Positions 2,031 to 22,226 of a DNA stretch of 64,000 nt are shown here, piece after piece. The position numbers and the translations under genes were made by a program. The notes beneath the pieces are model-generated. The model was not told where the DNA came from. It worked only from the letters and a program-made list of their open reading frames with translations, and did not search any database. Origin of the DNA: Nocardioides pini (GTDB taxonomy: Bacteria > Actinomycetota > Actinomycetes > Propionibacteriales > Nocardioidaceae); NCBI RefSeq assembly GCF_026712185.1, contig NZ_JAPPUX010000003.1, forward strand, positions 372,001 through 436,000, read 5' to 3'. Position 1 is the first letter of the stretch; the number at the start of each line of letters is the position of its first letter.

Positions 2031-2089
2031 AGAGTAGGCCAGCGCCCGGCTCCGCCGATGTGCCGCCACGCCGCCTGACCTGCGAAGAT
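2031..2089. promoter_or_regulatory. Divergent leaderless promoters, DUF3000-rnd and hemE
   Basis: On the minus strand TACTCT (2031-2036) sits 6 nt before the DUF3000 ATG. On the plus strand GAAGAT (2084-2089) sits 6 nt before the hemE GTG at 2096. Both spacings put the transcription start on or next to the start codon. The hemE box is the weaker match. Confidence 0.55.
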
Positions 2090-2095
2090 TCACGG

Positions 2096-3142
2096 GTGAC
2101 CGACGCCGTGCCCACGCCCCACCCCGGACTGGCCCAGAGCCCCTTCCTCGCGGCGGCGCGCGGTGAGGTCCCGTCCCACACGCCGGTCTGGTACATGCGG
2201 CAGGCGGGCCGCTCGCTGCCCGAGTACCTCAAGGTGCGCGAGGGCATCGGGATGCTCGAGTCCTGCATGGACGCCGACCTGGTGACCGAGATCACCCTGC
2301 AGCCCGTCCGTCGCTACGGCGTGGACGCGGCCATCTTCTTCTCCGACATCGTGCTGCCGCTCAAGGCCGTCGGCGTCGACCTCGACATCAAGCCGGGCGT
2401 CGGTCCCGTCGTGGCCTCACCGGTGCGCACCATGGCCGACGTGGAGGCCATCCCCGACCTCACGGCCGAGCACGTCCCCTACATCTCGCAGGCCGTGCGC
2501 CAGCTCGTCGCCGAGCTCGGCGCGACGCCGCTGATCGGCTTCGCCGGCGCGCCCTTCACCGTGGCGTCCTACCTCGTCGAGGGCGGGCCGTCGAAGGAGC
2601 ACGCCAGGACCAAGGCGATGATGTTCGGCGCCCCCGACGTGTGGGACGCGCTGATGCACAAGATCGCCGGCATCGCCGCCGCCTACCTCCGCATCCAGGT
2701 CCGGGCCGGGGCCTCAGCCGTCCAGCTCTTCGACTCGTGGGCGGGCGCCCTCACGCCGGCCGACTACCGCGCGTCGGTCATGCCGCACTCCCAGCGCGTG
2801 CTCGCCGCGGCCGGCGAGCTCGGCGTGCCGCGCATCCACTTCGGCGTCGGCACCAGCAACCTGCTCGGCCTGATGGGCGAGGCGGGCGCCGACGTGGTCG
2901 GCGTCGACTGGCGTACGCCGCTGGAGCAGGCGATCCCGCTGGTCGGCGACCGGGCGGTGCAGGGCAACCTCGACCCGACCCTGGTCTTCGCGCCCACCGA
3001 GGTGATGACCGCGCGCGCGGCCGAGATCATCGAGGCGGGCCGCCGGGCCAAGGGCCACATCTTCAACCTCGGCCACGGCGTCATCCCCTCGACGGACCCC
3101 GGTCAGCTCACGGCGCTGACCGAGTTCGTGCACGGCTGCTGA
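2096..3142 (+). CDS. hemE: Uroporphyrinogen III decarboxylase
   Basis: HemE decarboxylates the four acetate side chains of uroporphyrinogen III to give coproporphyrinogen III, in the cytosol. The 348-residue protein has the family length and its signature N-terminal motif VWYMRQAGRSLPEY, FFSDIVLPLKA with the active-site Asp, the FAGAPFTVASY segment and the C-terminal FNLGHGVIPST motif. I chose the GTG at 2096 over the ATG at 2060 because the protein start then matches the family and a -10-like GAAGAT lies 6 nt upstream. The 3' end overlaps the convergent LysR gene by 35 nt. The later-acting genes cgoX/hemY and hemQ lie about 9.6 kb downstream, separated by sulfur genes. Confidence 0.97.
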   Translation: MTDAVPTPHPGLAQSPFLAAARGEVPSHTPVWYMRQAGRSLPEYLKVREGIGMLESCMDADLVTEITLQPVRRYGVDAAIFFSDIVLPLKAVGVDLDIKPGVGPVVASPVRTMADVEAIPDLTAEHVPYISQAVRQLVAELGATPLIGFAGAPFTVASYLVEGGPSKEHARTKAMMFGAPDVWDALMHKIAGIAAAYLRIQVRAGASAVQLFDSWAGALTPADYRASVMPHSQRVLAAAGELGVPRIHFGVGTSNLLGLMGEAGADVVGVDWRTPLEQAIPLVGDRAVQGNLDPTLVFAPTEVMTARAAEIIEAGRRAKGHIFNLGHGVIPSTDPGQLTALTEFVHGC

Positions 3143-4115
3143 TCGGCGTCACCGGCGTCAGGTCCGCCGTGGCTTCCGCCGCCGGGTCGGACGCGGTCGC
3201 GGGCAGCTCGACCGACGACAGGTAGATCCGGGCCTGGCGGACCAGCGCGCGCTGCAGGTCTCGCAGCGGCTCGGGCACCCGCTCGGCTCGACGCCGCAGC
3301 ATGAGCAGCATCACCGTCGTCTGGTCGGTCTGGATCGGACGCGTGGTGAGCACTCCTGCCTCGACGAGCGGGTCGGCGACGATGGAGAAGTCGGGGAGCA
3401 CCGAGATCCCGAGCCCAGCGGCCACCATCGCCTTGCCCATCTCCGCCCCGTCGGTGGCATAGGTCGTGCCCGGCAGGTTGCCGGCGAAGAGGCGGTGGGC
3501 GTAGCGGTGCATCACGAAGCCGGGCCTCATGAGCACGTGCGGCTCGGCGCGGAGGTCGTCCACGGTGACCCGCTCCTTGGCGGTCAACGGGTGTCCGACG
3601 GGGAGGCAGGCGACCGGCGTGCCCTCGATCAGCCGGTCGGCGACGAGCGTCGGCGGCACCTCGTCGCCGGGCAGCACGTTGACCAGGCCGAGGTCGAGCG
3701 ATCCCTCGGCGAGGCCCTGCTGGATGTCGACCTGCCGGCCGTTGACGACCTCGACGCCGCCGGAGCCGTGGCGGGCGTGCAGGTCGCGCAGGGCGGGGGC
3801 GAGCAGGCTGGACGAGGCGGTGACGACCGTGCCGATGCGCAGGTCGCGGCGACGGACGGACTGCTGGCCCGCCGCCTGCCGCAGCCGGTCGACCGCCTCG
3901 AGCACCTCGGTCATGTTCTGCAGCAGGTCGAGGCCCTGCCGGCTGATCCGCGACCCGGTGCGCCGGCGGTCGAGCAGCGTCGTGCCGAGCTCCTTCTCCA
4001 GCTTGGTCACCGCCTCGCTCAGGGCCGGCTGGGAGATGTGCATCGCCTCGCTCGCGCGGCGCAGCGAGCCGTGCTCGGTCACCGCCGCGAGGTATTCCAG
4101 CTGTTCGATCCGCAC
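3108..4115 (-). CDS. LysR-family transcriptional regulator, probable sulfur-gene regulator
   Basis: This 335-residue protein has an N-terminal winged helix-turn-helix (residues 1-60; MRIEQLEYLAAVTEHGSLRRA, SQPALSEAVTKLE) followed by a LysR substrate-binding domain (about 92-295). The start is GTG with AGGAG 7 nt upstream. It is transcribed divergently from the flavin monooxygenase operon, the classic arrangement for a LysR regulator of its neighbour. CysB/Cbl-like control of sulfur acquisition is therefore plausible but inferred. The last 35 nt overlap the end of hemE in antisense. The C-terminal 40 residues are low-complexity (Ala/Thr/Arg) and look like a poorly conserved extension. The effector is unknown. 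Confidence 0.9.
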   Translation of the reverse strand: MRIEQLEYLAAVTEHGSLRRASEAMHISQPALSEAVTKLEKELGTTLLDRRRTGSRISRQGLDLLQNMTEVLEAVDRLRQAAGQQSVRRRDLRIGTVVTASSSLLAPALRDLHARHGSGGVEVVNGRQVDIQQGLAEGSLDLGLVNVLPGDEVPPTLVADRLIEGTPVACLPVGHPLTAKERVTVDDLRAEPHVLMRPGFVMHRYAHRLFAGNLPGTTYATDGAEMGKAMVAAGLGISVLPDFSIVADPLVEAGVLTTRPIQTDQTTVMLLMLRRRAERVPEPLRDLQRALVRQARIYLSSVELPATASDPAAEATADLTPVTPISSRARTRSAP

Positions 4116-4249
4116 GCTCTGCTCCTGCCGGGGGGTCTGGTCTGGCTCTGGTCTGGTTGTCCGAGGTGGTGCTGTCGGGGCCGTGGTCGCGGGGTGGACG
4201 GCAAAACCTGCTACCGGGAGTTCGTGGTCCGCGACCTCGATTCCCTAAA

Positions 4250-4268
4250 GTCTACTAAGTAACTATAC
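4250..4268. promoter_or_regulatory. Operator/promoter-like site, first monooxygenase gene
   Basis: GTCTACTAAGTAACTATAC is an imperfect dyad containing the perfect core TACTAAGTA (4253-4261). It starts 39 nt before the ATG at 4289. AT-rich islands are rare in this DNA. The site shares GTCTAC and its position with 5727-5745, and its AAGT-n-ACT core with the palindrome at 14831-14857. TATAC could also serve as part of a -10 box. Confidence 0.5.
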
Positions 4269-4288
4269 AAAACGGGAGGAACTCACCC

Positions 4289-5590
4289 ATGACCACCCTG
4301 CGTGTCCGGCCCACCCGCAGCCGCGACGACTCCGCGCCCCGCCGCCAGCCCACCGACTGGAGCGCGGTGCTCGCGTCCATCTCCGAGGGCGCGCTGCGGC
4401 GCGAGGTCGACGGCGAGCTGCCGGTCGAGGCGGTGCGCCTGCTCAAGTCGGAGGGGTTCGGCGCGTTGCGCGTCCCGGCCGCGTCCGGCGGCGGCGGGTT
4501 GGGCCTCGTCGACCTCGCGCGCCTCTGGATCGAGCTGGCTGCCGTCGATGCCAACCTGCCGCAGGCCTTCCGCGGGCACTTCGCGCTGGTCGAGGACCGG
4601 CTGTGGCACCACGCCCGCACCAGCGACCAGCGGGTGTGGTTCGACCGGTTCGTCGCCGGGGAGATGGCCGGCAACGCCTGGGCCGAGGTCGGCTCCGACA
4701 TCGACCTGCCGCGCACCGTGCTGCGCCCGCGCGCCGACGGGACCTACCGGCTCGACGGCACGAAGTACTACACGACCGGCACGATCTTCGCGGAGTGGAC
4801 CGACGTGCACGCACGACTCGCGCGGCCCGGGCACCCCGACGAGGTGGAGGAGCCCACCGCCATCGCGCTCGTCGACACCCGCGACCCGGGCGTGCGCACG
4901 GTCGACGACTGGAACGGGTTCGGCCAGAAGGGCACCGGCAGCGGCACGACCACGTTCGACAACGTCGGCGTGCCGGCCGAGCACGTGCTGCCCTTCGAGG
5001 ACCGGTTCCCCTACCAGACCGCGTTCTACCAGCTGAACCTCCTCGCCACGCTGACCGGGATCGCCCGGGCCGCGCTCCGCGACGTGGTCGACGCCGTGCA
5101 GAAGCGCACCCGCAACTTCTCGCACGCCAACGCGCCGCGCGTGCGCGACGACGCCCAGGTGCTGGCGCTGGTCGGCGAGATCGCCGCCGCGGTCTACGCG
5201 GCCGAGGCTGCCACCCTGCGGGTGGCTGGCAGCATCCAGGCCGTGGCGGACGCGTCGCTCGCGAGCGCCGACGAGATCGCGGCCCTCGTCGAGGCGAGCG
5301 AGATCGAGTCGTCGACCGCCCAGGTCGTGGTCTCCGAGCTGGTCCTGCGGGCCACCTCCGACCTCTTCGACGCGCTGGGGGCCTCCGCCACCGCACGGCC
5401 GCTCGCGCTCGACCGCCACTGGCGCAACGCGCGCACGGTCGCCTCGCACAACCCGCGCATCCTCAAGGCCCGGGTCGTCGGCGCCCACGCCGTCAACGGC
5501 ACCCCGCCGCCGTACGCCTGGTCCATCGGCGGGACGCGCCGTCGCCAGGACTGGGACGACACGAGGCCTCGCTCCGGCGACGCCGGCTGA
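4289..5590 (+). CDS. Acyl-CoA-dehydrogenase-fold flavin monooxygenase (DszC/SfnB-like), paralogue 1
   Basis: The 433-residue protein has the three-part fold of acyl-CoA dehydrogenases: helical N-domain (about 40-130), beta middle domain (about 135-240; GNAWAEVGSD, GTKYYTTGTIFAEW) and helical C-domain. It carries the monooxygenase signature DRHWRNARTVASHNP near the C-terminus, typical of DszC/SfnB-type FMNH2-dependent oxygenases, rather than the catalytic Glu region of true dehydrogenases. Such enzymes oxidise organosulfur compounds in sulfur scavenging. The start is supported by GGGAGGA 9 nt upstream. It is divergent from LysR and heads the sulfur cluster. A large hairpin separates it from its paralogue at 5763. 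The substrate cannot be deduced; a sulfone, sulfoxide or thioether is plausible. Confidence 0.85.
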   Translation: MTTLRVRPTRSRDDSAPRRQPTDWSAVLASISEGALRREVDGELPVEAVRLLKSEGFGALRVPAASGGGGLGLVDLARLWIELAAVDANLPQAFRGHFALVEDRLWHHARTSDQRVWFDRFVAGEMAGNAWAEVGSDIDLPRTVLRPRADGTYRLDGTKYYTTGTIFAEWTDVHARLARPGHPDEVEEPTAIALVDTRDPGVRTVDDWNGFGQKGTGSGTTTFDNVGVPAEHVLPFEDRFPYQTAFYQLNLLATLTGIARAALRDVVDAVQKRTRNFSHANAPRVRDDAQVLALVGEIAAAVYAAEAATLRVAGSIQAVADASLASADEIAALVEASEIESSTAQVVVSELVLRATSDLFDALGASATARPLALDRHWRNARTVASHNPRILKARVVGAHAVNGTPPPYAWSIGGTRRRQDWDDTRPRSGDAG

Positions 5591-5616
5591 GACCGACCGG
5601 TCACGCACCGGCTCCG

Positions 5617-5673
5617 GAGGGGGTGGAGGGAGGTGCCTTGCGTTGCCTGCAAGGCATCTCCTTCCACCCCCTC
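5617..5673. terminator. Large perfect-type hairpin between the two monooxygenase genes
   Basis: The arms 5617-5641 and 5649-5673 pair over 25 positions with only two G-U wobbles and a 7-nt loop. It begins 27 nt after the stop at 5590 and ends before the next promoter/operator. No T-tract follows, so it may be a terminator, an RNA-stabilising 3' structure or a palindromic repeat. Confidence 0.6.
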
Positions 5674-5726
5674 GACATCCCCGCGCGAGGCCGGTCCCGG
5701 GATCGGGGCTCGACGCTGCTACCTTT

Positions 5727-5745
5727 GTCTACAAGATCAATAGAG
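5727..5745. promoter_or_regulatory. Operator/promoter-like site, second monooxygenase gene
   Basis: GTCTACAAGATCAATAGAG agrees with the site at 4250-4268 in 12 of 19 positions and begins 36 nt before the ATG at 5763, against 39 nt there. It contains the dyad tCTA-n9-TAGa. GTCTA/TAGAC half-sites resemble those of the corynebacterial sulfur repressor McbR, but that is only a resemblance. Confidence 0.45.
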
Positions 5746-5762
5746 TTTGTGCTGGAGGAGAG

Positions 5763-6989
5763 ATGAGCGCTGTCGTCGTCCCCGAGGTCGGAGCCGTCCC
5801 GGTCCTGACCCGCGACGAGGCGATCGCGGTCGCCACCGAGATCGCCGCCGAGCTCGCGGCCACGTCGCTCGAGCGCGACCGCGACCGCGTGCTGCCCAGG
5901 CGCGAGCTCGACCGCCTCTCGACCTCGGGCCTGCTCGCGGTGACGGTCCCGACCGAGCACGGCGGCGCCGGTCTCCCGGTCGAGACGCTGGCCGAGGTCT
6001 TCCGGATCCTCGCGACCGGCGACCCGAGCGTGGCCCAGGTGCCGCACAGCCACTTCGTCTACGTCAACGCGCTGCGCCACCAGGGCACGCGCGAGCAGCA
6101 GTGGTTCCTCTTCCGCGAGGTGCTGGCCGGCAAGCGGTTCGGCAACGCGCAGTCCGAGGTGGGCACGAAGCACGTCCGCGACATCCGGACGACGCTGACA
6201 CCGGCCGGGCACGGGCGCTGGACGCTGAGCGGCACCAAGGGCTACAGCACGGGCGCGCTCTTCGCCGACTGGATCCCGGTGCTCGCCCGCCAGGACACGC
6301 TGGCCGCGCCGGGCACCGGCCCGCTGCACGTGGCCTGGGTCGAGCGGCACGCCCCCGGCGTGAGCGTCACCGACGACTGGGACGGCATGGGCCAGCGCAC
6401 CACCGCCAGCGGCACCGTGCGGCTCGACCAGGTCGAGGTGGGCGCCGACCGGATCACGCCCTACCACCTGACCTTCGAGGGCCCGCAGACCTACGGCGCG
6501 TTCGCGCAGGTGCTGCACGCCGCGCTCGACGTCGGCATCGCCCGCGCCGCGCTCACCGAGGCGGCGGCGTTCGTCCGCACGACGTCGCGCCCCTACCCGG
6601 ATGCCGGCGTCGACCGGGCGGCCGACGACCCGCTGGTCGTCCAGGCGCTCGGCGAGATGGAGCTCGACGTACGCGCCTCGGAGGCGCTGCTGCGCGAGGC
6701 CGCCCGTGCCGTCGACGCCGCCGACGCCGACCTCACCGCCGACACCGCGGCGACCGCGAGCCTGGCCGTGGCCGCCGTACGGGCCCACTCGGCCCGCGTG
6801 TCCGTCGAGGTCGCAAGCCGGCTCTTCGAGGTGTGCGGCACCCGCTCCGCCCTCGCCTCGCTCAACCTCGACCGCCACTGGCGCAACGCCCGCACGCACA
6901 CCCTGCACGACCCGGCCGCCTGGAAGGTGCAGCACCTCGGCAGGTACGTCGCCGACGGCACGCCGCCGCCCAACCACGGCCAGCTCTGA
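5763..6989 (+). CDS. Acyl-CoA-dehydrogenase-fold flavin monooxygenase (DszC/SfnB-like), paralogue 2
   Basis: This 408-residue protein is a paralogue of the 4289 gene product. It shows the same domain order and the near-identical signature LNLDRHWRNARTHTLHDP, with the middle-domain motif LSGTKGYSTGALFADW. The family includes sulfur-acquisition oxidoreductase SfnB and dibenzothiophene monooxygenase DszC, which need FMNH2 from a partner reductase. Two candidate reductases are encoded at 8148 and 8681. The start at 5763 has GGAGGAG 4-5 nt upstream; a longer reading from 5643 would run through the operator. The 19-nt gap to the SsuD gene suggests one transcript from here to the MFS gene. Having two diverged copies suggests two substrates or successive steps. 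Confidence 0.85.
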   Translation: MSAVVVPEVGAVPVLTRDEAIAVATEIAAELAATSLERDRDRVLPRRELDRLSTSGLLAVTVPTEHGGAGLPVETLAEVFRILATGDPSVAQVPHSHFVYVNALRHQGTREQQWFLFREVLAGKRFGNAQSEVGTKHVRDIRTTLTPAGHGRWTLSGTKGYSTGALFADWIPVLARQDTLAAPGTGPLHVAWVERHAPGVSVTDDWDGMGQRTTASGTVRLDQVEVGADRITPYHLTFEGPQTYGAFAQVLHAALDVGIARAALTEAAAFVRTTSRPYPDAGVDRAADDPLVVQALGEMELDVRASEALLREAARAVDAADADLTADTAATASLAVAAVRAHSARVSVEVASRLFEVCGTRSALASLNLDRHWRNARTHTLHDPAAWKVQHLGRYVADGTPPPNHGQL

Positions 6990-7008
6990 CCCCGCGAAAG
7001 GATCAACG

Positions 7009-8151
7009 ATGAAGTTCCACTGGTTCCTGCCCACCAACGGCGGTGACGGCCGGCAGGTCGTCAGCGGCGGCCACGGCGTCTCCCACGGCTCCGGCGGCCG
7101 GCCGGCGAGCGTTCCCTACCTCGGGCAGATCGCCCGCAGCGCCGAGCAGCTCGGCTTCGAGGCCGCGCTGACCCCGACCGGCGCCTGGTGCGAGGACGCG
7201 TGGCTGACGACCGCGATGCTGGCGCCGCTGTCCGAGCGGCTGAAGTTCCTCGTGGCCTTCCGGCCCGGGATGACGTCGCCGACGCTGGCCGCGCAGATGG
7301 CCGCGACTTTCCAGAACCTCTCGGGCGGTCGCCTGCTGCTCAACGTGGTGACCGGGGGCGAGTCCCACGAGCAGCGCGCCTACGGCGACTTCCTCGACAA
7401 GGACGCGCGCTACGAGCGCTGCGACGAGTTCCTCGAGATCGTCCGCAGGCTCTGGACCGGTGACGAGGTCACCTTCGCCGGCCGCCACCTGCGGGTGGAG
7501 CAGGCGCGGCTCCAGCAGCTGCCCGACCCGGTCCCCGGCATCTACTTCGGCGGCTCCTCGCCGGCCGCAGGGATCGTGGCCGCCAAGCACGCCGACGTCT
7601 ACCTCACGTGGGGCGAGCCGCCGGCCGCCGTGGCCAGGAAGATCGCCTGGATCCGCGAGCTCGCCGACCAGCAGGGTCGCGAGATCCGCTTCGGCATCCG
7701 CATGCACACCATCAACCGCGACACCTCCGAGGAGGCGTGGGCCGAGGCCGACCGCCTGCTCGAGGGCATCGACGACGCCGAGATCCGGCGCGTGCAGGAG
7801 GGCCTCAAGAGGTCGGAGTCGGTCGGCCAGCAGAACATGCTCGCCCTCAACAACGGCTCGCGCGAGGGCCTGGAGATCCACCCCAACGTCTGGGCCGGCG
7901 TCGGCCTGGTCCGCGGCGGGGCCGGCACCGCGCTCGTCGGCAGCCACGAGGAGGTGGCCGACCGGATCGAGGAGTACGCCGCCCTCGGCATCGAGGAGTT
8001 CGTGCTCTCGGCCTACCCGCACCTCGAGGGCGCCTACCACTTCGGCGAGGGCGTGCTGCCGGTGCTCGAGAGGCGCGGCCTGTGGACCAACCCCGCCCCG
8101 GTCGCGGCCCGCGCGTCCGTGCCCTTCGGCGGTCAGCGAGCCGCGTCGTGA
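7009..8151 (+). CDS. ssuD: FMNH2-dependent alkanesulfonate monooxygenase
   Basis: SsuD cleaves alkanesulfonates to aldehyde and sulfite using FMNH2 and O2. The 380-residue product has the length of E. coli SsuD (381) and aligns along its whole length. Visible blocks include the N-terminal FWFLPT-like stretch, CEDAW with the conserved Cys (residue 61), KFLVAFRPGMTSPT, the YFGGSSPAA motif, LTWGEPPA, SVGQQNM and the C-terminal loop region WAGVGLVRGGAGTALVG. It is a TIM-barrel luciferase-like enzyme. An AAAGGA lies upstream of the ATG at 7009. The stop overlaps the GTG of the reductase gene by 4 nt (8148-8151). The E. coli FLPTHGDG motif reads FLPTNGGDG here, a possible specificity change. Confidence 0.93.
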   Translation: MKFHWFLPTNGGDGRQVVSGGHGVSHGSGGRPASVPYLGQIARSAEQLGFEAALTPTGAWCEDAWLTTAMLAPLSERLKFLVAFRPGMTSPTLAAQMAATFQNLSGGRLLLNVVTGGESHEQRAYGDFLDKDARYERCDEFLEIVRRLWTGDEVTFAGRHLRVEQARLQQLPDPVPGIYFGGSSPAAGIVAAKHADVYLTWGEPPAAVARKIAWIRELADQQGREIRFGIRMHTINRDTSEEAWAEADRLLEGIDDAEIRRVQEGLKRSESVGQQNMLALNNGSREGLEIHPNVWAGVGLVRGGAGTALVGSHEEVADRIEEYAALGIEEFVLSAYPHLEGAYHFGEGVLPVLERRGLWTNPAPVAARASVPFGGQRAAS

Positions 8152-8684
8152 ACAACATCCACAAGAACAGCGCCCGCGTCGCCGTCGTCGTCGGCAACCC
8201 CAAGCCACGCTCGCGCACCTACGAGTCCGCGCTGACCCTCGCCGACCGGCTCGGCGGCGCCGACCTCGTCGTCGACCTCGCCGACCACGCCTCCGTGCTC
8301 TTCGACTGGGGCTCGCCGCGCGTCACCGAGCTGGTCGAGGAGGTCGCCTCCAGCCTCGTGGTGGTCGTCGCCAGCCCGACCTACAAGGCGACCTACACCG
8401 GCCTGCTGAAGGCGTTCCTCGACCGCTTCCCCCACCAGGGACTGGGCGGCGTCACCGCCATCCCGCTCATGCTCGGCGCATCGCCGGTCCACTCGCTCGC
8501 CACCGAGCACGGGCTCCGCCCGCTCCTGGTGGAGCTCGGCGCGTCCGTGCCGACCCGGGGGCTCTACGTCCTCGACTCCGAGCACGACCGGCCCGAGACG
8601 TACGACGCGTGGTTCGCCACCGCGCAGCAGCTCCTGCCGACCCTGCCCGCTCCCGCCCCCTCCCTGGAGGTGTCGTCCGCATGA
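8148..8684 (+). CDS. ssuE: NAD(P)H-dependent FMN reductase, SsuE-like
   Basis: This flavodoxin-like reductase of 178 residues supplies FMNH2 to SsuD and probably also to the two upstream monooxygenases. The phosphate-binding loop GNPKPRSRT lies at residues 15-23, and the conserved family segment ASPTYKATYTGLLKAFLD lies at about 75-92, matching the SsuE motif. The GTG start gives a 4-nt GTGA overlap with ssuD. The stop in turn overlaps the next ATG (ATGA, 8681-8684), so translation is coupled across three genes. The N-terminal extension of about 11 residues is poorly conserved, so a later start is possible. Confidence 0.88.
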   Translation: MNNIHKNSARVAVVVGNPKPRSRTYESALTLADRLGGADLVVDLADHASVLFDWGSPRVTELVEEVASSLVVVVASPTYKATYTGLLKAFLDRFPHQGLGGVTAIPLMLGASPVHSLATEHGLRPLLVELGASVPTRGLYVLDSEHDRPETYDAWFATAQQLLPTLPAPAPSLEVSSA

Positions 8685-9307
8685 CCGCACACGCCCACTC
8701 GCACCCCGCGTCCGTCCCGGCCATCGACCAGCGCACCCTGCGCGACGCGTTCGGCGCGTTCCCCTCCGGCGTGGTCGCCGTCGCGGCGTCGGTGAAGGGA
8801 CAGCTCACCGGGATCGCCGCGTCGTCGTTCACCTCGGTGAGCATCGACCCGCCGCTGGTGTCGTTCTCCATCGCGGCCTCGAGCTCCACCTGGCCGCTCC
8901 TCCGCGAGGCCGAGCACCTCGGCATCAGCGTCCTCGCCGACCACCACGACACGGTGTGCCGCCAGCTCGCCGGTCCGCGCGAGGAGCGCTTCGCCGGCCT
9001 GCCCTTCAAGGTCACCGGCAACGGCGCGGTCCTGCTCGACGAGGCCGTGGCGACCTACGACTGCTCGCTGCACGAGGAGGTCGTCGCCGGCGACCACGTC
9101 ATCGTCCTGCTCGAGGTGCACGAGGTCGGTGCGGGCGACGGCGAGCACCCGCTCGTCTTCCACCGCTCCGCCTTCGCCAAGCTGCACCGCGACGACCTCG
9201 ACCCCGCTCGCCTCGACGGCCGGATCAACGGTGCCGAGGTCGACCGGGGTGACCGCGAGAGCGATGCCTCGACGCAGTCGCACGACGACGCGGAGGACGC
9301 GGCGTGA
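8681..9307 (+). CDS. Flavin reductase family protein (second reductase)
   Basis: The 208-residue product belongs to the flavin-reductase-like FMN-binding split-barrel family, unrelated in fold to SsuE. It shows the family start LRDAFGAFPSGVVAVAA and the segment GIAASSFTSVSIDPPLVSFSI, with the C-terminal core region LVFHRSAFAKL. The last 35 residues are acidic and probably disordered. Such enzymes reduce free FMN or FAD for two-component monooxygenases. Having both a flavodoxin-type and a split-barrel-type reductase in one operon suggests that each serves different oxygenases. It overlaps its neighbours by 4 nt on both sides. Confidence 0.9.
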   Translation: MTAHAHSHPASVPAIDQRTLRDAFGAFPSGVVAVAASVKGQLTGIAASSFTSVSIDPPLVSFSIAASSSTWPLLREAEHLGISVLADHHDTVCRQLAGPREERFAGLPFKVTGNGAVLLDEAVATYDCSLHEEVVAGDHVIVLLEVHEVGAGDGEHPLVFHRSAFAKLHRDDLDPARLDGRINGAEVDRGDRESDASTQSHDDAEDAA

Positions 9308-10641
9308 GCGCCCACGCCGCGCAGGCGGCTCCCACCCCTCGCCGCGTCGCGCTGGCCTCGGCCGTCGGCGCCACGATCGAGTGGTACGACTTCTTCCTCT
9401 ACGGCACGGCCGCCGCGGTCGTCTTCGACAAGCTCTACTTCAACGGCCTCGACGGCCCGGCCGCGCAGTTCGCCGCCTTCGCCACCTTCGCCGTCGGGTT
9501 CCTCGCCCGGCCGGTCGGCGGGCTCGTCTTCGGCCACTACGGCGACCGCATCGGGCGCAAGCAGATGCTGCTGCTGACCCTGGTCATCATGGGCGTCGGC
9601 ACCGCGCTCATCGGCCTGCTGCCGACCTACGACCAGATCGGCGTCTGGGCGCCGATCGCGCTGGTGGTGCTGCGGGTGCTGCAGGGCATCGGCGTGGGCG
9701 GCGAGTACGGCGGCGCGGTGCTGCTCGCCGTGGAGTACGCCCCGGCCCGGCGCCGCGGCTTCTACGGCAGCTTCGCGCACATCGGCGTGCCCGGCGGGCT
9801 CGTCCTCGCCGCCGGCGCCTTCTCGATCGCCGGGCTCCTGCCCGAGGAGGCCTTCCTGGCCTGGGGGTGGCGGGCGTGCTTCCTCGTCAGCATCGTGCTG
9901 CTCGGCATCGGCGCCTACATCCGGCTCTCCGTCATGGAGACCCCGGAGTTCGCCAAGGTGCAGGAGCGCAAGGAGATCTCGCGGCTGCCGCTGCGCGACC
10001 TGTTGCGCGAGCAGCCCCGCCCGCTGCTCCTCGGCATGGGCACCCGCTACATCGAGGGCTTCACCTTCAACCTGTTCTCGGTCTACCTCCTCGCCTACGT
10101 CGCCACCAACCTCGAGCTGCCGCGCAGCTGGGCCCTCGACGCGATCCTGGTCGGGGCGGCACTCGGCGTCGTGCTCGTTCCGGTCGCCGGCGCGCTCAGC
10201 GACCGGGTCGGTCGCAAGCCCGTCTACCGCGTGGGCGCGTGGATCGGGCTGCTGTTCGCCTTCCCGGCGGCGTACCTCGTGCAGACGGAGAACCGCTGGG
10301 CCATCTCCCTCGTCTTCGTGGTCGGCCTCGGCGTCATCTACGGGACGGTCTACGGACCGCTCGCGGCGTTCTGGTCCGAGCTGTTCGACACCCGGTACCG
10401 CTACACGGCGCTCAGCACGCTCTACCAGGTCTCCGGCATCGTCGCGTCCGGGCTGACGCCGCTCATCGCGGCCTGGCTGGTCACCCGAGGCGACGGGACG
10501 CTGTGGTGGGTCGCGACCTACAACGTGCTGGTCGCGGCGATCTCGCTGACCTGCGCGCGCTTCCTGCCCGAGACCCGCGGCCGTGGGCTCGACAGCGCCG
10601 ACCCGACGCAGGAGCCCGTCCGCGAGCGCATCCCGGCCTGA
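9304..10641 (+). CDS. MFS transporter, metabolite:H+ symporter (MHS) type
   Basis: This 445-residue integral membrane protein has about 12 predicted helices. It shows the MHS hallmarks GATIEWYDFFLYG at the N-terminus, FGHYGDRIGRKQML in the loop after helix 2 and QGIGVGGEYGGAV in helix 4; the second half repeats SDRVGRKPV. MHS carriers import organic acids, osmolytes or aromatic acids with protons. As the last gene of the sulfur operon, joined by a 4-nt overlap, it is the likely importer of the organosulfur substrate. That is unusual because ssu systems normally carry an SsuABC ABC importer, which is absent here. A strong hairpin follows at 10694. Confidence 0.92.
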   Translation: MSAHAAQAAPTPRRVALASAVGATIEWYDFFLYGTAAAVVFDKLYFNGLDGPAAQFAAFATFAVGFLARPVGGLVFGHYGDRIGRKQMLLLTLVIMGVGTALIGLLPTYDQIGVWAPIALVVLRVLQGIGVGGEYGGAVLLAVEYAPARRRGFYGSFAHIGVPGGLVLAAGAFSIAGLLPEEAFLAWGWRACFLVSIVLLGIGAYIRLSVMETPEFAKVQERKEISRLPLRDLLREQPRPLLLGMGTRYIEGFTFNLFSVYLLAYVATNLELPRSWALDAILVGAALGVVLVPVAGALSDRVGRKPVYRVGAWIGLLFAFPAAYLVQTENRWAISLVFVVGLGVIYGTVYGPLAAFWSELFDTRYRYTALSTLYQVSGIVASGLTPLIAAWLVTRGDGTLWWVATYNVLVAAISLTCARFLPETRGRGLDSADPTQEPVRERIPA

Positions 10642-12712: not shown

Positions 12713-14062
12713 GTGAGGCGTGACGCGGTGGTCGTGGGCGGCGGGATCGCCGGTCTGGTCGCGGCTCGCGGTCTCGCCGCGGCCGGGCGTGACGTGCTGC
12801 TGCTCGAGGGCTCGCCGCAGGTCGGTGGCAAGCTGCGCACCGCAGAGGTCGCCGGACTCACCGTCGACGTCGGCGCAGAGGCGATGCTCGCCCGCCGGCC
12901 CGAGGGGGTGGCCCTCGCCGAGGAGCTCGGCGCCGCGGTGGTCAACCCGACGCCCGCGACGTCGGCGGTCTGGTCGCGCGGCGCCCTGCGCACGATGCCG
13001 CGCTCGCTGATGGGGGTGCCCCTCGACCTCGACCAGCTGGCCGCGACCGAGGTGCTGAGCCCCGAGGGCCTGGCCCGGGCGAGCACCGAGGCCACCACCC
13101 CGGTCGACGACGACGTCTCGGTCGGCGACCTGGTCGCGGCCCGGCTCGGTGACGAGCTGGTCGACCGTCTCGTCGAGCCGCTGCTCGGAGGGGTGTACGC
13201 CGGCCACGCCCGCCGCATCTCCGCGGCCGCCGCCGTGCCGCAGCTGCTCGCCATGGCCCGCCGCGGCGGCCTCCTCGAGCAGGCCGCCGGCGTGCCGACC
13301 TCCGGCGCCCCGGTCTTCGCCGCGCTCCCCGGCGGGATGGGCCGCCTGCCCGCCCTGGTCGCCGACGGCGCCGGCTTCGAGGTGCGGACCTCGGCGACCG
13401 TCCGCGCGCTGCGGCGCACGTCGACCGGCTGGGCGCTGACCGTCGGCCCCACCGTCGCCGCCGAGACGGTCGAGGCCGACGCGGTCGTGCTGGCCACCCC
13501 CGCCCCGGCCACCGCCCGCCTGCTCGGCGAGGTGCTCCCGGACGCCGCCGCCGGCCTCGGCGCGGTCGAGGCCGCGAGCGTCGCCGTCGTCACCCTGGCC
13601 TTCCGCGCGCAGGACGTCCCGGACGCGTTGTTCGACCGGTCCGGGTTCCTCGTGCCGCCGGTCGAGCGGCGCACCATCAAGGCCTCGACCTTCTCCTTCG
13701 CCAAGTGGGCGTGGGTGCGCGACCTCGACCCCGACGTCGTGGTGCTCCGCACCTCGCTCGGGCGGCACCGCGAGGAGGCCACCCTCCGGGCCGCCGACGA
13801 GGGGCTGGTGCGGGTGTCCCTCGCCGACCTCGCCGCCCTGGTGGGCATCACCGCCCGGCCCGTCGACACCCACGTGCAGCGGTGGGGCGGCGCGCTGCCG
13901 CAGTACGCCGTCGGCCACCTCGAGCGGGTGGCGCGGGTCCGTGCCGCCGTCGGTTCGCAGCCCGGCCTCGCGGTCTGCGGGGCGGCGTACGACGGCGTCG
14001 GCATCCCCGCGGTGATCGGCTCGGCCCGCCGCGCTGTGGCCTCGCTCACGGGGGCAGAATGA
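12713..14062 (+). CDS. hemY: Coproporphyrinogen III/protoporphyrinogen oxidase
   Basis: This FAD-dependent oxidase of 449 residues removes six electrons from coproporphyrinogen III in the Gram-positive coproporphyrin-dependent heme branch, where it is also called CgoX. The dinucleotide-binding motif [17 protein letters not shown] opens the protein, followed by [13 protein letters not shown]. The C-terminal FAD-contact region ends in [17 protein letters not shown]. The pathway choice is supported by hemQ 4 nt downstream. The start is GTG, with CAGGGT 6 nt upstream suggesting a leaderless message. The stop codon overlaps the putative hemQ -10 box. In related genomes this gene directly follows hemE; here about 9.6 kb intervene. 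Confidence 0.93.
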
Positions 14063-14066
14063 CGTC

Positions 14067-14786
14067 ATGACCGAGTCCACCGAGACGCAGACCAACGCCG
14101 CTCGCACGCGGGAGCTCAACGACACGATCCGCTACACGATGTGGTCGGTGTTCCGGCTCCGCGACGTCCTCGGCGACGACGCCGACCGTGCGGCCGAGGC
14201 GACCGACGTCGAGGCGCTCGTCGAGGTGCTGGGGGAGCAGGACGTCGTCGTGCGCGGCCTGTACGACGTCAGCGGCCTGCGCGCCGACGCCGACGTCATG
14301 GTGTGGTGGCACGCGCCCGACTCGCAGCAGCTGCAGGGCGCCTACAACGCCTTCCGGCGCACGGCCTTCGGCCGCCGCCTCGACCCGGTGTGGTCGCAGA
14401 TGGCGCTGCACCGTCCGGCGGAGTTCAACAAGTCGCACATCCCGGCGTTCCTCGCCGACGAGGAGCCGCGCGCGCACGTGTGCGTCTACCCGTTCGTCCG
14501 GTCCTACGAGTGGTACCTGCTCGACGACGGCGAGCGACGCCGGATGCTCGCCCAGCACGGCCAGCAGGCCCGCGGCTACGCCGACGTGCGCGCCAACACC
14601 GTCGCCTCCTTCGCCCTCGGCGACTACGAGTGGCTGCTGGCCTTCGAGGCCGACGAGCTGCACCGCATCGTCGACCTGATGCGCGACCTGCGCGCGTCCG
14701 ACGCGCGTCGCCACGTGCGCGAGGAGGTGCCGTTCTACACCGGTGCCCGGGTCACGCCGAAGGAGCTGCTCGACCGCCTGCCCTGA
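14067..14786 (+). CDS. hemQ: Coproheme decarboxylase
   Basis: HemQ (239 residues, chlorite-dismutase-like fold) oxidatively decarboxylates coproheme to heme b, the last step of the Gram-positive pathway. The catalytic Tyr region [10 protein letters not shown] (about residues 143-152) and the proximal heme ligand His in MLAQHG (about 165) are both present. The N-terminal [12 protein letters not shown] is typical of actinobacterial HemQ. The start at 14067 has CAGAAT 6 nt upstream, within the end of hemY. The ferrochelatase gene is not in this window. Confidence 0.95.
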
Positions 14787-14830: not shown

Positions 14831-14857
14831 CAATGTAGAGTAAGTCACTCAACATTG
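14831..14857. promoter_or_regulatory. 27-bp inverted-repeat operator upstream of cysteine dioxygenase
   Basis: The outer arms CAATGT (14831-14836) and ACATTG (14852-14857) match perfectly, and GAGT (14839-14842) with ACTC (14847-14850) continue the dyad toward the centre. The right arm ends 14 nt before the ATG at 14872, with CAGGAGGA between. A repressor bound here would block transcription or initiation. The core AAGT-n-ACT resembles the site at 4250-4268 at the same distance from its start codon. Confidence 0.7.
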
Positions 14858-14871
14858 TTTCAGGAGGATTC

Positions 14872-15384
14872 ATGACCGCCACCTTCCCCGCCTCCCCGCT
14901 TCCCGGCATCCGCCGGAGCGGTCGCACGTCGAGCAGCACCACCGACCGGTTGCAGGCCGCGCGCACCGCCCTGGCCGAGCACCTCGCCACCCGCGACCCG
15001 CTCGCGCACGTCGACCTGTCCGTCCCGGAGCGCACCTGGGCCCGCGTCGGCACCGGTGCCGGCGCCGACATCTGGCTCATCACCTGGCCCGCCGGCTCGA
15101 GCACCGGCTGGCACGACCACGGCTCGGCGAGCGGCGCGTTCGTCGTCCTCACCGGGTCGCTGACCGAGTACGTCTGGACCGGCGTGGCCAGGGCGGCGAC
15201 CCTCCGTGCGTCGACGGTGCGCGAGTTCGACGGCAGCCACGTCCACGACGTGGTCAACCACGGCACCGACACGGCCGTCTCGCTGCACGCCTACGCCCCC
15301 GGCCTGGCCGCGATGACCCGCTACGAGCTCGTCCGCGGGCGGCTCCAGGTGACCAGCGTCGAGCAGCGCGGCGAGACCTGGTGA
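14872..15384 (+). CDS. Cysteine dioxygenase-family cupin protein
   Basis: The 170-residue product is a small beta-barrel cupin of the cysteine dioxygenase family, which uses non-heme iron and O2 to convert a thiol such as cysteine to the sulfinate. Iron ligands are visible as His81 and His83 in GWHDHGSASGAF and as a His in HVHDVVNH (123-125). The first 25 residues are Ser/Thr/Arg-rich and unconserved. The start is fixed by AGGAGG 5 nt upstream. The stop overlaps the GTG of the rhodanese gene by 4 nt. The pair is inserted between hemQ and the msrB region and is preceded by the strong palindrome at 14831. 3-mercaptopropionate is an alternative substrate. Confidence 0.85.
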   Translation: MTATFPASPLPGIRRSGRTSSSTTDRLQAARTALAEHLATRDPLAHVDLSVPERTWARVGTGAGADIWLITWPAGSSTGWHDHGSASGAFVVLTGSLTEYVWTGVARAATLRASTVREFDGSHVHDVVNHGTDTAVSLHAYAPGLAAMTRYELVRGRLQVTSVEQRGETW

Positions 15385-15836
15385 GCACCGTGTCGAGGAC
15401 CGCGCCGGGCCCCGCCCGGTACGACGGCGTCGACGCCCTGCTCGCCGACGCCCGCAGCCGACTGGACCGGGTCGACGTCGAGACCGCCTACCGGGAGGCG
15501 CTCGGCGGCGCGGTGCTCGTCGACATCCGTCCCGCGGCACAGCGGGCGGCCGAGGGCGAGGTGCACCCCGCGGTGGGTCCGCTGGTCGTCGAGCGCAACG
15601 TGCTCGAGTGGCGCTTCGACCCGCGCTCGGACGCGCGCCTCGCGGAGGCGTCGTACGACACCCGCATCCTGGTGCTGTGCCAGGAGGGCTACACCTCCAG
15701 CCTGGCCGCCGACGCGCTGCGCAGCCTCGGGCTCGACGCGACCGACGTCGTGGGGGGCTTCCGGGCGTGGCGCGAGGCGCAGCTGCCCGTCGCGTGCCGG
15801 GCCGGTCGACCGGGGGAACGGCTCGGGCCGCAGTAG
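15381..15836 (+). CDS. Rhodanese-like sulfurtransferase
   Basis: The 151-residue single-domain rhodanese has the active-site loop LCQEGYTSS with nucleophilic Cys100. The N-terminal part contains the GAVLVDIRPAAQR strand-loop typical of the fold. Proteins of this type carry persulfide sulfur or handle sulfite and thiosulfate. The GTG start overlaps the dioxygenase stop (15381-15384). Such dioxygenase-rhodanese pairs recur in bacteria and suggest oxidation of cysteine-derived sulfur with rhodanese handling of intermediates. The exact reaction is inferred. Its TAG stop lies inside a TAGCGT box that may start the next gene. Confidence 0.88.
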   Translation: MSTVSRTAPGPARYDGVDALLADARSRLDRVDVETAYREALGGAVLVDIRPAAQRAAEGEVHPAVGPLVVERNVLEWRFDPRSDARLAEASYDTRILVLCQEGYTSSLAADALRSLGLDATDVVGGFRAWREAQLPVACRAGRPGERLGPQ

Positions 15837-21052: not shown

Positions 21053-21128
21053 GTGGTCCTCAGTCCTGTCCGGGAGCGGGGTCGCCACGATCCTAGGGGG
21101 CGCGACACCGGCCGATAGGGTGACCCGC

Positions 21129-22226
21129 ATGCCGACGTCCACCACCCCGCTCGTCCTGGTCTCCGGCTCCGGCCGCAGCGGAACGAGCTCCCTCGCCGGC
21201 ACCCTGAAGCGGCTCGGCCTCCACGTGCCGCAGCCCGAGGTCGAGGCGTCGGAGACCAACCCGCGCGGGTTCTACGAGCCGCAGTGGGTCATCGACTTCC
21301 ACAAGCGCCACCTCAAGGAGCTCGCGCTCTTCAACATCGACAGTCGCCCGGCCGCCGTCGACATCGTCGCGCGCCACGTCGGGACGGGCGTCCCGACCGG
21401 CGAGCTCCACGAGTGGCTGTCCGGCCAGCTCGCCCAGTACGACCAGCCGGGCGACCAGATCGTGGTCAAGGACCCGCACGCGTTCTGGTTCGCCCAGGTG
21501 TGGGAGGTCGTCAGCGCCGAGCTGGGCGCCGACCTGCGCTGGCTGACCGCGCTGCGCCATCCCGCCGAGGTCGTCGGCTCCCGCGACATCGCCTACCTCT
21601 CCAGCCAGTCCGACGAGCTGCGGCTCACCAAGGAGACGTCCAACGTCGCCGGCTGGGTGCACGCCGCCCTCCTCACCGAGCAGGCGGGCCGCGGCTCGAA
21701 GCGCTCGTTCGTGCGCTACGTCGACCTGCTGGCCGACTGGCGCGCGGCCCTCGCGCCCGTGCAGCAGCAGCTCGAGCTGACCTTCGACACCGACCTCTCT
21801 GCCCCGCCCGGGCAGCGCGACCACCACCCGGTCGACGACTTCGTCGAGCCCTCGATGCGCAAGTCGCAGCTCACCTGGGACGACGTCCGCACGCCCGACT
21901 GGCTGCGTGACATGGCCGAGGAGGTCTGGCAGCTGCTCGGCGTCCTCACCACGACGCCGCACGACCCCGACACGCTCGCGCGGCTCGACGAGGTCCACGA
22001 GGACTACCGCGCGCGCTACGCCGACGCCGTCGCCCTCACCTTCGACCACACCAAGGCCGAGTCCACGCTCGCGGCTCGCCAGGCGCGCGACGCCCAGCGC
22101 GCGACCGTCCAGCAGCTGCGCCGCGACCTCGAGCAGGCGCGCCGTGGCACCGAGCACACCGTCGGTGGCCGGGAGGCGGCCGCCATCCTCCGCCGCGCCG
22201 TCGTACGCCGCGTCACCCGCCGCTGA
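21129..22226 (+). CDS. Sulfotransferase-like protein
   Basis: The 365-residue product opens with a P-loop that binds the 5' phosphosulfate of PAPS, LVSGSGRSGTSSLAGTLKRLG. The 3'-phosphate-binding region is suggested by ALRHPAEVVGSRD (about 150) and the basic RYVDLLADW strand. The C-terminal 40 residues are helical and charged, possibly a coiled coil (RDAQRATVQQLRRDLEQARR). Such proteins sulfate glycans or lipids. It is divergent from the GT4-Stealth gene with a short shared promoter region, which suggests that both modify the same surface glycan. TAGGGT at 21116-21121 lies 7 nt before the chosen ATG. Acceptor unknown. Confidence 0.82.
   Translation: MPTSTTPLVLVSGSGRSGTSSLAGTLKRLGLHVPQPEVEASETNPRGFYEPQWVIDFHKRHLKELALFNIDSRPAAVDIVARHVGTGVPTGELHEWLSGQLAQYDQPGDQIVVKDPHAFWFAQVWEVVSAELGADLRWLTALRHPAEVVGSRDIAYLSSQSDELRLTKETSNVAGWVHAALLTEQAGRGSKRSFVRYVDLLADWRAALAPVQQQLELTFDTDLSAPPGQRDHHPVDDFVEPSMRKSQLTWDDVRTPDWLRDMAEEVWQLLGVLTTTPHDPDTLARLDEVHEDYRARYADAVALTFDHTKAESTLAARQARDAQRATVQQLRRDLEQARRGTEHTVGGREAAAILRRAVVRRVTRR

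Follow-up and report, generated by a model that had tools for sequence, protein, structure and literature searches.

A conserved 27-bp dyad before a cysteine dioxygenase-rhodanese operon of Nocardioides pini, putative operator of a sulfur-limitation regulon

The dyad and its genomic setting

The 64-kb stretch of DNA analysed here (the window) belongs to a genome of 4.5 Mb in 15 contigs. At 14831-14857 it contains a 27-bp inverted repeat, CAATGTAGAGTAAGTCACTCAACATTG, with arms of 11 nt that are complementary at 10 of 11 positions and enclose a 5-nt loop. The repeat is a putative operator of the two-gene operon that begins with the ATG at 14872, leaving a gap of 14 nt, and an AGGAGG ribosome-binding site recognized by eye (14862-14867, + strand) lies directly 3' of it. 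The first gene (14872-15384, + strand) encodes a cysteine dioxygenase (CDO) with a CDO_I domain (PF05995, 6.7e-19); the start of the second (15381-15836, + strand), which encodes a rhodanese-like protein (PF00581, 9.2e-07), overlaps the CDO stop codon. The first-pass annotation had reported a 27-bp inverted repeat 14 nt before the start codon of a cysteine dioxygenase-rhodanese operon, and the exact sequence, the position of the ATG and both Pfam domains bear this out. Its remark that no Rrf2-type regulator gene lies nearby also holds: a family search found none near the dyad, and the nearest regulator seen is the LysR gene at 3108-4115.

An NCBIfam scan assigned the CDO to no named family. 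Arg-type and Gln-type cysteine dioxygenases are distinguished in a section of PMC8050391, and by alignment to PDB 8qfl, which matched the WHDH sequence (HxH motif) and placed Arg54 of the window protein over Arg61, the enzyme is Arg-type; as such it would be expected to consume cysteine.

The sulfur genes of the window are flanked by genes for heme synthesis, namely hemE (2060-3142), an amine-oxidase-type FAD gene of the protoporphyrinogen oxidase kind (12713-14062) and hemQ (14067-14786); hemQ-like sequence was often seen by eye 5' of CDO in the other loci compared. Further along, the window holds a polysaccharide-type cluster (36213-63905) with O-antigen-ligase-type, DegT aminotransferase, glycosyltransferase, flippase-type and polysaccharide deacetylase genes.

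Two more copies of the site, overlooked in the first-pass annotation, accompany a whole sulfonate-type operon that, with a divergent LysR gene, spans 3108-10641, some 4-10 kb before the dyad. On a symmetrised regulon matrix derived from 61 non-redundant sites, the dyad scores 39.8 bits and is the best site in the window. The second copy (TAAAGTCTACTAAGTAACTATACAAAA, 4246-4272, 33.7 bits) lies 16 nt before the ATG at 4289 and the third (CTTTGTCTACAAGATCAATAGAGTTTG, 5723-5749, 27.1 bits) lies 13 nt before the ATG at 5763; all three are unstranded features. The next-best site in the window reaches only 5.8 bits and overlaps one of the two sulfonate-operon sites. The second copy precedes a gene for an SfnB/DszC-like oxidoreductase of acyl-CoA dehydrogenase fold (4289-5590; PF08028; TIGR04022 at 251 bits, below the cut-off of 430.9), and the third precedes one for an SfnB-family sulfur acquisition oxidoreductase (5763-6989; TIGR04022 at 505.5 bits, above the same cut-off of 430.9). 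Downstream follow genes for an SsuD-like alkanesulfonate monooxygenase (7009-8151; PF00296; TIGR03565 at 454.9 bits, below the cut-off of 518.2), an SsuE-like NADPH-dependent FMN reductase (8145-8684; PF03358; TIGR03567 at 93 bits, below the cut-off of 164), a flavin reductase (8681-9307; PF01613) and an MFS transporter (9304-10641; PF00083/PF07690), all of them, like the two oxidoreductase genes, on the + strand. The LysR-type regulator (3108-4115; PF00126, PF03466) is encoded on the - strand. Elsewhere in the same genome the site stands before a sulfotransferase gene (C14:46913) and a gene for an FAD-NAD(P)-binding protein (C1:1016574), so that it is common to CDO, two SfnB-type genes and these two. 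The CDO dyad is therefore one of a set and not a private element of its operon.

Conservation of the site and the genes that accompany it

The symmetry of the dyad is unusual but, taken alone, only suggestive. At its stringency (arms of 11, at least 10 paired, loop of 3-8) the window contains 39 inverted repeats, compared with 8-26 in 12 dinucleotide shuffles. Of the 39, the dyad alone has at least 6 A/T in its left arm, and one such repeat occurred in 1 of the 12 shuffles. The question is decided by conservation.

Relatives of the CDO are present in 70 of 147 genomes of the genus, and 30 CDO loci (L002-L031) were compared. Among the ten closest, the window's own genome included, 24 of the 27 dyad columns are invariant. 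In the flanks, 0 of 60 columns on the upstream side and 2 of 20 on the downstream side are so, in an ungapped, dyad-anchored comparison that somewhat underestimates flank identity. Conservation before orthologous dioxygenase genes, whose absence the first-pass annotation had named as a ground for refutation, was thus found, and sites stand before both CDO and other sulfur genes. In its strict palindromic form the dyad was matched by 10 records of a collection of named genomes, nine from Nocardioides and one from a Pseudomonadales MAG. Upstream regions of the more distant CDO genes carry a related 27-bp site, for example CAAAGTCTATTGACTTAGTGCACTATG, and 28 of the 30 CDO upstream regions score at least 20 bits on the regulon matrix; the exceptions are L014 (9.9 bits) and L017 (6.4 bits). 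This count is in part circular, the training rule of the matrix having admitted 24 of the 30 loci. The six loci outside the training set comprise L014 and L017 as well as L012, L013, L027 and L028, the last four of which pass 20 bits.

The matrix can be read as an ideal operator of about the form CAAAGTCGAGTAASTTACTCGACTTTG. With at most 3 mismatches, the pattern CAANGTNNANTNACTTANTNNACNNTG occurs in 92 of the 147 genus genomes (205 strand-wise matches) and its reversed control in 22 (27 matches); these counts are lower bounds, since the pattern missed both sulfonate-operon sites of the window. To describe the company of the site, 60 regions were taken from the pattern matches listed. Among the matches listed, 25 sites have at most 2 mismatches and were not recognised as CDO sites (CDO sites such as those of G034, G081 and G083 were left out), and 19 of these 25 adjoin genes of sulfur-acquisition or sulfur-amino-acid families, a label that denotes family membership and hence predicted function. 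The families are sulfotransferases, TauD with a divergent ROK regulator, sulfatase, luciferase-like monooxygenases, sulfonate-type and sulfate-type binding proteins, a DszC-like oxidoreductase, a Cys/Met PLP enzyme, a sulfite-oxidase-type molybdoenzyme, a class-V aminotransferase, DUF4395-rhodanese and one CDO. Omission of this last site (L109), which turned out to belong to a CDO gene, leaves 18 of 24 among the matches listed. Three loci (L090, L098 and L099) were counted as sulfur-type from their likeness in sequence to scanned relatives, and L100 on the strength of DUF4395 together with a rhodanese-like gene 599 nt away, with the Pfam run made on its counterpart in L068; L085 and L099 share an identical site and near-identical genes. 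No sulfur gene adjoins the other six of the 25 listed sites (L064, L078, L082, L083, L088 and L196).

To obtain a base rate, 20 of the 25 other predicted ORFs of the window were scanned, and none of the sulfur families was found among them; the rate is not zero, since one of the other five ORFs, at 21120-22226, resembles by eye a P-loop sulfotransferase-family protein. The matrix scan places no operator copy near that ORF. A separate observation concerns L115 and L116, in which near-identical sites, CTAAGTACAGTAACTTACTAGATATAG, precede a UDP-GlcNAc epimerase-like gene with no evident link to sulfur.

Across the order, 40 of 293 genomes match a symmetrical pattern when up to 2 mismatches are allowed, compared with 1 for the reversed control. 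Outside Nocardioides, 7 of 13 sites adjoin CDO, TauD, DszC-like or Cys/Met PLP genes, three of them (L204 with TauD, L208 and L209) as judged by sequence, and 6 of the 13 do not. These 13 sites come from 12 of the 16 matching genomes outside the genus; G169, G207, G256, G306 and the second site of G220 were left out. Together, these data make it very probable that the dyad is an operator of a sulfur regulon.

Promoter geometry and Cys-rich leader ORFs

Of the 20 more distant CDO loci, 18 were inspected for promoter geometry. In 14 of the 18, a TTGCAA, TTGAAA or TTGGAA hexamer is found at the left edge of the site and is followed, 17 nt later and at the right edge, by CACTAT (10 loci) or a variant of it; in 15 of the 18, a start codon lies 5-6 nt beyond the right hexamer. 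The hexamers were assigned from sequence, and leaderless transcription was deduced from their spacing. In 12 of the 18 loci the ATG after the site opens an upstream ORF (uORF) of 22-26 codons, so that the site appears to span the promoter of a leaderless uORF. Eleven of the 12 uORFs contain 3 or 4 Cys codons, and 8 end in CCRCC or CCPCC. In L013, L018 and L025, the ATG after the site is the start of the CDO gene itself. The window's CDO gene has no room for a uORF, because the ribosome-binding site directly follows the dyad and the start codon is 14 nt away.

Two of the distant loci depart from the common pattern. In L025 the uORF of its relatives seems to have been fused in frame with CDO, with loss of the Cys cluster (MTSPLPVLRGARRLPGLLEVV...). 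The uORF of L016 has the usual length with a single Cys codon and ends in RCRRR in place of CCRCC, as might be seen in a decayed or changed sensor.

Leaderless, Cys-rich uORFs before sulfur genes have been put forward in mycobacteria as candidate cysteine attenuators that keep expression low when cysteine is plentiful, according to a portion of that report (PMC4633059). Eleven of the 18 distant CDO loci show the corresponding features, since a short and apparently leaderless ORF in which Cys codons cluster precedes CDO, and they resemble the mycobacterial uORFs, as described in the same portion of PMC4633059, in the placing of the Cys codons at the end of the ORF and in the proximity to sulfur genes. 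They differ from them in standing at distant CDO loci and in being combined with a 27-bp site over the promoter. Repression is a better fit than activation for a site that covers the core promoter, and the earlier proposal that the operon is repressor-controlled agrees with the position of the site over or next to the presumed core promoter.

A model for the regulon and its candidate binders

We propose a model in which a dimeric repressor would cover the core promoters of genes for sulfur acquisition as long as sulfur is in good supply and would leave the operator when sulfur becomes short. Its release would turn on sulfonate, sulfate-ester, taurine and thiol genes, including the CDO-rhodanese operon, as well as ROK and LysR regulators of local scope in some species. 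That sulfur limitation switches the regulon on is probable, although with less assurance than the assignment of the dyad as an operator. The model as a whole, a sulfur-limitation operator bound by a dimeric repressor that is most likely Rrf2/CymR-like, is in our judgement only slightly favoured over its alternatives taken together. By analogy, the 27-bp operator may act much as those of the CymR or McbR sulfur systems do.

The leading candidate for the binder is an Rrf2 protein (PF02082, 2.1e-32) encoded on contig C11 of the same genome (512115-512570) behind a TauE/SafE permease gene (L146:5412-7071 covers the permease gene and then rrf2). In the PDB it is closest to Rrf2/BadM and CymR proteins, including CymR of B. 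subtilis (2y75, 3.5e-14) and of S. aureus (3t8r, 1.7e-12). It scores 79 bits against the CymR equivalog NF047409 of NCBIfam, below the cut-off of 195; since that cut-off was missed and binding is a prediction, the protein is not filed here as CymR. All 30 orthologues compared over 152 residues contain 0 Cys, which excludes an Fe-S cluster held by cysteines of the protein itself. A full-length Rrf2 protein was found in each of 36 genomes tested, with one or two more in 7 of them, and an orthologue is present in 146 of the 147 genus genomes; the sole miss is an assembly that is 84% complete.

Sites at the promoters of the candidate and its neighbour suggest a connection with the operator. In the same genome the TauE promoter holds GTATGTCTACTCTTTCACCTGACATAC, a degenerate form of the 27-bp site, and a site of at least 7 bits is present at the TauE promoter in 16 of the 16 loci in which the TauE gene was found and at the rrf2 promoter in 19 of 30 near relatives; in the background, 2 of 500 windows reached 7 bits, both of them true sites of the window analysed here. 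The best rrf2 match lies exactly 16 nt before the start codon in 24 of these 30 relatives, and three of the 24 matches are below 5 bits (L164, L170 and L179). Where present, the rrf2 promoter site is weak, at 5-18 bits compared with about 30-40 at the targets. In 16 further Nocardioides it lies at -16 in 7 and at -33 in 2, a doubtful site being further off in G108, and it is absent from the rrf2 promoter in 6 (G023, G024, G028, G044, G058 and G129), each of which has the motif elsewhere. At loci of other genera, 10 of 13 rrf2 promoters have no such site, and 54 of the 146 genus genomes with Rrf2 have no site by the CAANGTNNANTNACTTANTNNACNNTG pattern at up to 3 mismatches. Order-wide, motif matches occur in 38 of the 143 genomes that have a close Rrf2 (E below 1e-50), compared with 2 of the 150 that lack one, an association that may reflect shared ancestry. 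We would put the chance that this Rrf2 protein binds the 27-bp operator at about even.

Related systems have been described. In complex with CysK, CymR represses genes for the formation of cysteine (abstracted from PMC2869319). The Nocardioides candidate resembles the Rrf2-family CymR of Bacillus and Staphylococcus as an Rrf2 fold without cysteines and differs in its presumed gene set, organosulfur acquisition and CDO; the comparison concerns the protein. In Rhodococcus qingshengii IGTS8, dibenzothiophene culture was the only condition to yield an Rrf2-family protein for which a role as global sulfur regulator has been suggested; its gene has no sulfur genes next to it as far as the relevant sections of that account go (PMC8557817). 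The same sections report that this protein, a ROK protein beside TauD, a sulfatase and a sulfotransferase were raised in such culture (PMC8557817), a set that resembles the one described here. Unlike the present case, they describe no operator, and the two Rrf2 proteins are likened here at the level of the family. A later paper names a CymR homologue, in its passage on the subject, as one possibility in this connection (PMC9426449). A search of open-licence literature found no description of an operator like the 27-bp dyad.

The same sulfur-limitation operator might be bound by a protein of another kind, a TetR-type McbR analogue, a ROK-type CysR/SsuR analogue or a member of another family. 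We regard this as unlikely, though a serious alternative, given that the case for Rrf2 is circumstantial and that several genomes have no site at the rrf2 promoter. In Corynebacterium, McbR, CysR and SsuR control genes of the same kind, and in C. glutamicum a global regulator stands over ROK-type sulfur regulators and sulfonate genes, as outlined in parts of PMC2580772; comparably, Nocardioides ROK genes beside TauD carry the site. Unlike in C. glutamicum, the ROK half-site TGAA[at]nnAAT given in PMC2580772, in the portion that treats SsuR and CysR, does not match the 27-bp site by eye, and the genome of the window has no such ROK gene. Two regulators were rejected as general binders, namely the ROK protein beside TauD (type L098), which occurs in 23 of 147 genus genomes with no match in the window's genome at E <= 1e-20, and the LysR protein of the L101 type, which occurs in 31 of 147 and likewise has no match in that genome at the threshold used. 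Having no match there, both look like targets or local regulators.

Binding by a LysR-type protein such as that encoded at 3108-4115 is improbable. This gene is divergent from the sulfonate operon beside the site at 4246, it is present in 84 of the 147 genus genomes (E <= 1e-40) and in 65 of the 92 that carry the motif, and it lies 4.5-21 kb from CDO in 23 genomes compared; other LysR genes adjoin sites in L064, L075, L101 and L196. It is nevertheless absent (E <= 1e-40) from 27 of the 92 motif-carrying genomes, for which it was rejected as the general binder, and among the genomes that lack it G023, G058, G125 and G129 hold sites with at most 2 mismatches. A full palindrome of 27 bp is, moreover, not the usual LysR box.

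The first-pass annotation had regarded the dyad as a repressor site and an excess of cysteine or sulfide as the likely signal; as a rival explanation, the site would be private to the operon, which such an excess would open. An Arg-type cysteine dioxygenase as the first gene would suit the disposal of cysteine, yet sulfonate, taurine, sulfate-ester and sulfotransferase genes share the site, and a Cys-rich uORF is present at 11 of the 18 distant CDO loci. This company of sulfur-scavenging genes and Cys-rich uORFs makes a shortage of sulfur or cysteine the likelier inducing state, and we consider the proposal of an excess signal very improbable and set it aside. A chance palindrome or a leader RNA hairpin is hardly credible, for, whatever symmetry alone may produce in a shuffle, the bases themselves are kept, loop included, beyond mere pairing, and in the leaderless loci the site would lie upstream of the transcript start.

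On the preferred reading of a sulfur-limitation operator, the presence of an Arg-type cysteine dioxygenase inside a sulfur-shortage regulon is paradoxical: the enzyme would either salvage sulfur from cysteine or related thiols or act on a different substrate. More tentatively, at rather less than an even chance, the data may point to an undescribed global sulfur regulon in Nocardioides and its relatives, in which a cysteine-free Rrf2 protein would act through the 27-bp operator and also have ROK and LysR regulators as a second tier under its control. The operator would, at many CDO loci, be stacked on a leaderless Cys-rich uORF, bringing repression and cysteine-dependent attenuation together at one promoter, and CDO would serve sulfur salvage in shortage and not disposal. 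For sulfur control in soil actinobacteria of a large genus, the analysis supplies a concrete operator together with a candidate regulator that can be named. It would also reverse the role expected of cysteine dioxygenase, as a cysteine-burning gene would apparently be switched on when sulfur is short.

Relatives of the Rrf2 protein also occur on plasmids; these were rejected as site-bearing loci, no site of at least 10 bits being found at any of three loci, one of them from a record that bears no annotation. In one of them (L217, Streptomyces plasmid NZ_CP108713.1), which has no 27-bp site, the Rrf2 relative lies among ABC transporter genes, an acyl-CoA dehydrogenase gene, an annotated 'putative leader peptide' and a sulfatase gene. 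On another plasmid, an Rrf2 relative is encoded beside an acyl-CoA dehydrogenase.
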